This document shows, in pieces, positions 26,825 to 28,126 of a stretch of 64,000 nucleotides of DNA; position 1 is the first letter of the stretch, and each line of letters starts with the position of its first letter. The stretch spans positions 186,001 through 250,000 of the forward strand of contig PBIO01000014.1 of NCBI GenBank assembly GCA_002720865.1, read 5' to 3'. Source of the DNA: Halobacteriovorax sp. GTDB taxonomy: Bacteria; Bdellovibrionota; Bacteriovoracia; Bacteriovoracales; Bacteriovoracaceae. Made by a program: the position numbers and the translations under genes. Under the pieces are notes generated by a model. It did no database searches. It saw only the letters and a list, made by a program, of their open reading frames with translations, and was not told where the DNA came from.

Positions 26825-28039
26825 ATGGTCAAAATGATTCCATTATTAATGCTTCTAACCTGCTTTTCAGTTAATGCAGAAAGTAGCAAAACAGTCCTTT
26901 ACGAGGGACAGCAATTTGAGTCCTTAGAGCTTAAGAACAAAAAAGTTGAAACAAGATACAGGGAAGAAGAAGTAGATGATACCTGTACGCGTCAAATCCC
27001 ATACACAGTTAATGAATGTGGATATGAAACTAGATATAGGACTGAATGTAGAACAGTTCCAGGTTATCAGGACTGTCGTACTGTTCAAGATCGTACCTGT
27101 AGAAACGTAACAAGATATAGAAGAGAATGTAGGAACGTTGGCGGTGGACAGACTTGTCGTACAGTCCCAGGAAGAAGACAGTGTAGAACTCTTCCAAATG
27201 GAACACAAAGATGCCGTCAGCTACCATCTCATAGAGTTTGTACAGATAAACCGCCTAGAAGAGAGTGTCGAGATGTTCCATATACAGACAGAGTCTGTAC
27301 CACGACACCTAGAAGACAGTGTGATTGGATTCCAAGCAGAAGAGTTTGTGAGGATGTTCCATATCAAGAGCATGTTTGTAGAGATGTAACGAGATACAGA
27401 ACTGAAGAATATGCCTGTAGAAGAACGATCCAAGTTCCTTATCAAGTTGTTGCAAAACTTTTTGATGGAAAAATCGATGTTCAATTCAAAGAATCAAATC
27501 TTGGAGTTTCTAAGGCCAATCTAAACTTTGAGTTGGATTCTGAGGGTAAGGTTTCTTTAAAAGTGGAAGATCTTTCGGAAAATGCAGCTCTTATTCTTGG
27601 AAAGAAAAAGGTAGAAGCCGAAGATCAGGGTGATACTTTAGCAATTAATGCACTTTATAAGATCAATTTTCTTGATATGAACAAAATTCTTGCTCCAATT
27701 AAAAAGCAAATTGGCGAATTTTATCTCAACGAAACATATCTTTCTTTTGTGATGGGTAAAGTTTTAAAGCCAGAAGGGATTAAAGTTTCTGTAAATATCA
27801 CTAGAAAAGATAAAACGATTCTTTCAAAAACTCTTGAAGCAAATGAGTATAAATTAAGAGATCACGAAGGAAACACGAAGCTAAGTTTAGATCTTAAGCA
27901 ATTTGATATTGACCTTAGAAGAAGGGAGCATTCTGTGACTGTTGACGTTGAGATGAAGTTTAATGACTTAATTCTTAACAGCCCAAGTCCGCTTCTAAAA
28001 AATACTAGAACTGTAAAAATCAAAGCCGTTAAAGATTAG
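26825..28039 (+). CDS. Secreted Cys/Arg-rich repeat protein, unknown function
   Basis: 404 residues. A signal peptide ends near residue 18 (SVNA|ESS). Residues ~54-198 form a striking repeat of nine to ten residues centred on '-C-R-x-V-P-': cysteines lie at 54, 65, 75, 84, 92, 102, 111, 120, 130, 139, 148, 158, 166, 175, 185 and 198, with many Arg and Tyr. Residues ~205-404 are a cysteine-free beta-rich domain with no motif I recognise. The 16 even cysteines suggest a disulfide ladder in the periplasm, outer membrane or exterior. The gene stands alone, with its own promoter region and a terminator. I cannot name a family. Confidence 0.75.
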   Translation: MVKMIPLLMLLTCFSVNAESSKTVLYEGQQFESLELKNKKVETRYREEEVDDTCTRQIPYTVNECGYETRYRTECRTVPGYQDCRTVQDRTCRNVTRYRRECRNVGGGQTCRTVPGRRQCRTLPNGTQRCRQLPSHRVCTDKPPRRECRDVPYTDRVCTTTPRRQCDWIPSRRVCEDVPYQEHVCRDVTRYRTEEYACRRTIQVPYQVVAKLFDGKIDVQFKESNLGVSKANLNFELDSEGKVSLKVEDLSENAALILGKKKVEAEDQGDTLAINALYKINFLDMNKILAPIKKQIGEFYLNETYLSFVMGKVLKPEGIKVSVNITRKDKTILSKTLEANEYKLRDHEGNTKLSLDLKQFDIDLRRREHSVTVDVEMKFNDLILNSPSPLLKNTRTVKIKAVKD

Positions 28040-28041
28040 GC

Positions 28042-28092
28042 AAAAAAAAAGCTTCAGTCAGTGCAGAAAAAACCTTTCTGCACGTCTGAAGC
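28042..28092 (-). terminator. Rho-independent terminator of the gyrA-atpE operon
   Basis: Stem arms GCTTCAG (28051-28057) with CTGAAGC (28086-28092), and inner arms GTGCAGAAA (28061-28069) with TTTCTGCAC (28075-28083), make a long, nearly perfect hairpin. Read on the minus strand it is followed by nine T (28050-28042). It sits between the convergent atpE and Cys-repeat genes and could stop both, although the plus-side tail (CTTCCTTAA) is poor. Confidence 0.88.
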
Positions 28093-28126
28093 CTTCCTTA
28101 ATATATCTTCTGATCTGAAGAAAAAA

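Follow-up and report, generated by a model that had tools for sequence, protein, structure and literature searches.

A single open reading frame of 404 residues was found on the forward strand at positions 26825 to 28039 of the window, which is the whole 64,000-nucleotide stretch of Halobacteriovorax sp. DNA that was analyzed (contig PBIO01000014.1). The sequence encodes a Sec-type signal peptide with predicted cleavage after residue 18 (VNA|ES), a Cys/Arg-rich array and a C-terminal beta region. The features of the gene were assigned as follows.

26825..28039 (+), whole gene, 404 aa, a single ORF with its own start and stop
26825..26878 (+), signal peptide MVKMIPLLMLLTCFSVNA (residues 1-18), Sec/SPI type
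26879..26983 (+), N-terminal base strands (residues 19-53, containing ETRYR), predicted to pair with VPYQVV after the last Cys
26984..27184 (+), N-arm of the proposed ladder, Cys54 to Cys120 (8 Cys; spacings 11,10,9,8,10,9,9)
27182..27214 (+), tip unit CRTLPNGTQRC (residues 120-130) with a PNG hairpin turn at the mirror axis
27212..27418 (+), C-arm of the proposed ladder, Cys130 to Cys198 (8 Cys; spacings 9,9,10,8,9,10,13); predicted bonds 54-198, 65-185, 75-175, 84-166, 92-158, 102-148, 111-139 and 120-130
27419..27688 (+), residues 199-288, return base strand plus predicted beta strands, probably the first beta-sandwich, from which the ladder would protrude
27689..28036 (+), residues 289-404, Ig/FN3-like beta-sandwich, predicted at a marginal score

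The mature protein has 16 cysteines, at residues 54, 65, 75, 84, 92, 102, 111, 120, 130, 139, 148, 158, 166, 175, 185 and 198, with spacings of 8 to 13 that are mostly 9 or 10. A seventeenth, Cys13, lies in the leader, but it is not in a canonical lipobox since the sequence reads LLTC-FSVNA|ES with T at position -1, and the 74%-identical relative L007 (L numbers denote the collected loci) has no leader Cys, so that the protein does not qualify as a bacterial lipoprotein. Relatives begin with a comparable hydrophobic leader. The array is rich in R (32 of 165 residues), T, V and P and has a net charge of +11 over residues 46-210. The observation in the earlier note, of 16 regularly spaced cysteines with a period of about 9 to 10 residues, was therefore confirmed. 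However, the note did not recognize the main point, which is that the spacings are mirror symmetric. Read in order they are 11,10,9,8,10,9,9,[10],9,9,10,8,9,10,13 and, apart from the outermost pair (11 versus 13), the list is the same in both directions (permutation P = 0.00165 for this protein alone).

To determine whether the protein belongs to a described family, sequence searches were performed. No Pfam family matched the window protein, the best NCBIfam score was 13.8 bits against a cut-off of 91, and no PDB chain was matched above cut-off, the SAS-6 hits at an E value of 0.2 being at chance level. Of 30 family members searched, only one gave a weak hit, to DUF4459 (E value of 0.008). The clear match to an ordinary characterized family that had been set beforehand as the refuting outcome was thus not obtained. 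Searches of phage, plasmid and viral-contig sequences also returned no relative.

Relatives were found within the phylum. The same genome has three more members, on contigs C17 (24 Cys, 727 aa, at 147124-148374, L003/L167, with an apparently repeated C-terminal beta domain), C31 (10 Cys) and C11 (12 Cys). A profile search found members in 93 of 129 genomes of the same family and in 126 of 369 genomes of the phylum, in six families altogether. The named relatives are from metagenome-assembled genomes of Bacteriovoracaceae (Bdellovibrionota). Arrays hold 2 to 100 cysteines, the largest being in L066 (genome G102, contig C72, 85500-90500), a relative of about 1333 aa with 100 array cysteines. Two tandem 18-Cys members, L184 and L093, lie side by side (genome G120, contig C9, 39500-44800), apparently through a recent duplication. 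L035 and L036 carry a different extra C-terminal alpha/beta domain, residues 435-522 of L035 matching 2nyi at a Z score of 7.6. Members from the genomes of one of the six families (L134, L137-L139, L141 and L143) have extra Cys-free repeats of the DVPYQ..ETYYE and TVTKYR types flanking the ladder and a conserved CC pair after it, and the Cys-free repeats may continue the two-stranded rod without rungs.

For statistical analysis, 121 members, from Bacteriovoracaceae and five other families of the phylum, were clustered at 60% identity into 88 groups. Mirrored inner spacings were equal in 427 of 446 cases (96%), compared to 135 and 140 of 446 when the mirror was shifted by one unit and 177 of 446 with a half-array shift. 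When pairs in which both spacings equal the protein's commonest spacing were left out, 177 of 196 were equal, compared to 11 of 322 and 14 of 320 with the mirror shifted by one unit, 26 of 642 for adjacent units and 23 of 292 for the half-array shift (3 to 8%). Single-protein permutation tests were in agreement, with 43 of 48 inner mirrored spacings equal in L066, 17 of 17 in L013 and 14 of 14 in L087, each at a P value of about 5e-5, the floor of the test. Quite different spacing alphabets were all mirror symmetric, for example 12,8,8,8,8,6,8,5,8,6,8,8,8,8,13; 8,6,8,6,8,6,9,6,10,6,9,6,8,6,8,6,8; and 10,6,7,6,10,6,7,6,10. Since members share ancestry, P values that treat clusters as independent overstate the significance, but the many distinct patterns (58) and the mirrored changes described below are separate evolutionary events. 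L116 (12,11,9,32,13) and a few other short, divergent members fitted poorly. The two outermost values differed by +2 or +1 in 72 of 85 clusters, as expected if the base of the hairpin carries a bulge.

The number of cysteines in the array was even in 86 of 88 clusters. Both exceptions were explained, L010 having one extra Cys 20 residues past a 16-Cys array and L136 being an N-terminally incomplete frame whose first Cys was dropped by the filter. The unit at the mirror axis carries a hairpin turn, with NG or DG in 42 of 85 central units but in only 7 of 1062 other units (Fisher P = 2e-45), as in CRIVNGRRVC, CEQVNGRRVC, CRTLPNGTQRC (the window protein) and CRTRPDGRQVC. In a 2-residue hairpin of the form CxxxNGxxxC, the two cysteines face each other at a non-hydrogen-bonded pair, the usual site for cross-strand disulfides. 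The center is also the one place where length varies freely, the central spacing ranging from 5 to 62 while the flanking spacings are constrained. In short-ladder members (L023, L109, L107, L148 and L149), long low-complexity tips rich in Gly/Tyr, His/Pro/Arg or Pro/Gly, resembling adhesive or metal-binding sequences, lie exactly at the mirror axis.

Next, we considered whether the two arms match unit by unit. RYR-type units faced PY-type units 87 times, whereas RYR-RYR and PY-PY pairs were never face to face, and with the mirror shifted by one unit this was reversed, RYR-PY falling to 1 or 2. In L066 the N-arm carries the 9-9-10 triplet NVPGREV/KNVPGKRT/RPERTTERV while the C-arm carries triplets of the same lengths but of another sequence, EAGPSKRE/STGSSRRV/KNVTKTTEK, in register, and L013 does the same with HAGPSRQE against RTVPGEQI. 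Facing charges were more complementary than those of shuffled partners (126 versus 52.6 +/- 16.5, P = 0.0005), although a diagonal offset of +2 also scored high, and this is therefore only supporting. Close relatives differed in pairs: L083 and L084 (79% identical) differ by one unit in each arm (30 versus 28 Cys), as do L087 and L088 (32 versus 30 Cys, 58% identical), whereas L017/L086, L092/L017 and L044/L001 differ within the array only by 1 to 5 residues at the exact center. Direct DNA repeats spaced 81 nt apart (three units) occur within the C-arm and within the N-arm of the window gene, consistent with each arm growing by its own tandem duplications.

The structure was predicted by AF2 using four sequences (mean pLDDT of 71). 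Strands were placed at residues 31-72/178-221, 88-105/145-162, 109-114/136-141 and 118-122/128-132. The last three pairs sum to 250, and the first nearly does, exactly as seven of the eight cysteine pairs do (54 + 198 = 252), such that the strands are symmetric about residue 125. Breaks fall at the V-P-G segment of the central units. Confidence in the array was only moderate (block means of about 39 to 85, lowest at residues 72-91 and 160-177). For L035 (20 Cys), only the center and base showed weak symmetry and most of the array had a pLDDT below 50, too low to use otherwise. Further strands were predicted at residues 230-237, 243-249, 255-267 and 271-284. Foldseek's top hits for the whole window model were pore-forming toxin chains with TM scores of 0.08 to 0.17 and rmsd over 30 Å, which we read as spurious long-hairpin matches rather than relatives. 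No ladder-like fold turned up in the PDB lists, but this part of the model is of low confidence and was barely tested by the search.

The genomic context was also examined. The gene is conserved between the riboflavin (rib) and ATP-synthase (atp) operons in several genera and stands on the opposite strand to both neighbors, suggesting that it is probably vertically inherited and transcribed alone, and it has no partner that would indicate a function. A promoter and terminator scan was uninformative. By eye, a long inverted repeat (AGCTTCAG..GTGCAGAAA / TTTCTGCAC..CTGAAGC), not reported by the scan, was found at 28045-28105 between the convergent ends of this gene and the ATP-synthase subunit c gene, and is probably a shared bidirectional terminator. 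DsbA and DsbB homologs were found in the same genome, DsbB and a DsbA-like frame lying close together on contig C14.

Together, these data strongly support an architecture in which the Cys-rich half folds as a single very long two-stranded antiparallel hairpin, and we hold this with high confidence. In this model the protein is exported by Sec and oxidized outside the cytoplasm, the chain runs out along the N-arm, turns at the central NG/PNG unit and returns along the C-arm, and each cysteine bonds its mirror image (Cys i with Cys N+1-i), giving nested disulfides, a ladder of 8 rungs here (up to 50 in relatives) about every 9 residues. The mirror symmetry, the even parity, the central turn, the facing unit types and the paired or central insertions and deletions are shown from sequence, whereas it is inferred that the disulfides form, that the rod is straight and that it works as a spacer or stalk presenting its tip at the envelope or cell surface. 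If fully extended, the ladder would span up to about 22 nm in the window protein and up to about 146 nm in the 100-Cys relative, but a 9-residue repeat with a central Pro is not a plain beta strand, so its straightness and rise per rung are not established. The suggested role as a stiff, protease-resistant, positively charged stalk growing out of a C-terminal beta-sandwich, its length set by the number of rungs, is a guess that is about as likely to be wrong as right.

The interpretation in the earlier note was thus supported in part. Its proposal of a secreted, basic protein joined to a separate beta domain (predicted here) and without a known family was supported, as was that of a disulfide-linked rod, both of these properties being inferred. 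The protein is, however, not a simple chain of repeats of about 9 to 10 residues but a predicted hairpin of mirror-paired repeats. The note's guess of a predator-surface or wall-binding role received no support from the gene neighborhood, and no expression or localization data were found in the literature.

Of the ALTERNATIVES considered, the one that survives best concerns the role and does not exclude the architecture, namely, a predation- or adhesion-specific surface fiber rather than a general envelope stalk. Several short forms carry Gly/Tyr-, His/Pro- or Arg/Gly-rich tip loops that look sticky, and the named relatives are Bacteriovoracaceae, a family that includes predators, but the ortholog sits alone between the rib and atp operons with no adhesion or secretion partner, and this role is considered unlikely. 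An antiparallel disulfide-linked homodimer, in which Cys i of one chain bonds Cys N+1-i of the other, would also require mirror-symmetric spacing. It would, however, allow odd cysteine numbers, which are essentially absent, and a central turn and central loops of 5 to 62 residues are needed only if the chain turns back on itself, making the dimer very unlikely. It remains possible, though not favored and slightly less likely still, that facing cysteines bind metal or another cofactor or stay reduced, since the bonds are inferred from sequence; the Sec signal and DsbA/DsbB point to an oxidizing compartment, there are no CXXC motifs in the window array, and one Cys per arm per rung matches a cystine rung. 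Local disulfides between neighboring repeats (1-2, 3-4), forming a chain of small beads or a beta-meander, would fit the even parity and the repeat of about 9 residues but are the least likely, since adjacent spacings agreed in only 26 of 642 informative cases and neither the mirrored insertions nor the single central turn would be explained.

We therefore consider it likely that these proteins represent a new class of repeat protein, in which repeats are paired across a mirror axis instead of stacking head to tail and the two arms of a hairpin of 1 to 50 nested disulfide rungs lengthen together by compensatory insertion of units, much as RNA stems do, giving rigid nanorods whose length is set by the gene. 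If the bonds form as predicted, one polypeptide must bring together up to 50 cysteine pairs, some of them hundreds of residues apart, in register, a demanding and testable oxidative-folding problem. The arms coevolve unit for unit with different sequences, as in L066 and L013, so that protein sequence alone shows compensatory insertions, a signal usually seen in RNA helices. The architecture also offers a template for stiff protein rods of chosen length and gives a structural reading to a family found in 126 of 369 searched genomes of a phylum that includes bacterial predators.

No description of this family, of mirror-paired repeats or of a nested disulfide ladder of this size was found in the open-access literature, the AlphaFold DB not being covered, and on this basis we regard the architecture as new in kind, although its elementary motif, a disulfide-stapled hairpin, is known. 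Residues 289-404 align to Ig/FN3-like beta-sandwich domains with a best Z score of 8.8 (rmsd of 2.8 over 91 residues), a marginal score given that the best background is typically 7 to 8, with no sequence family match, and the ladder has no counterpart in these matches. The CREMP eggshell membrane proteins and slime mold spore coat Cys repeats are likewise long arrays of Cys repeats in a secreted structural protein (PMC3068167), but these are head-to-tail modules of C-X4-C-X5-C-X8-C-X6, a reported pattern that is not mirror symmetric and that the window protein, with mirrored spacings of 8 to 13, does not share. The nearest idea is the cystine-ladder beta-hairpin of theta-defensins, protegrin, tachyplesin and gomesin, cationic peptides in which two antiparallel strands are joined by parallel, nested disulfides, as in the cyclic cystine ladder of three disulfides in theta-defensins (PMC10096437; class reviewed in PMC13001179). 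Those are short peptides (examples of 14 to 22 residues, mostly with 2 to 4 disulfides), mainly from animals. The bacterial protein described here, of 404 aa, is predicted to work like a ladder hairpin but is not assigned to these families of short secreted antimicrobial peptides, since its family would have 1 to 50 rungs with about 9 residues between them, arms broken by a Pro-Gly at mid-unit, and a beta-sandwich base.
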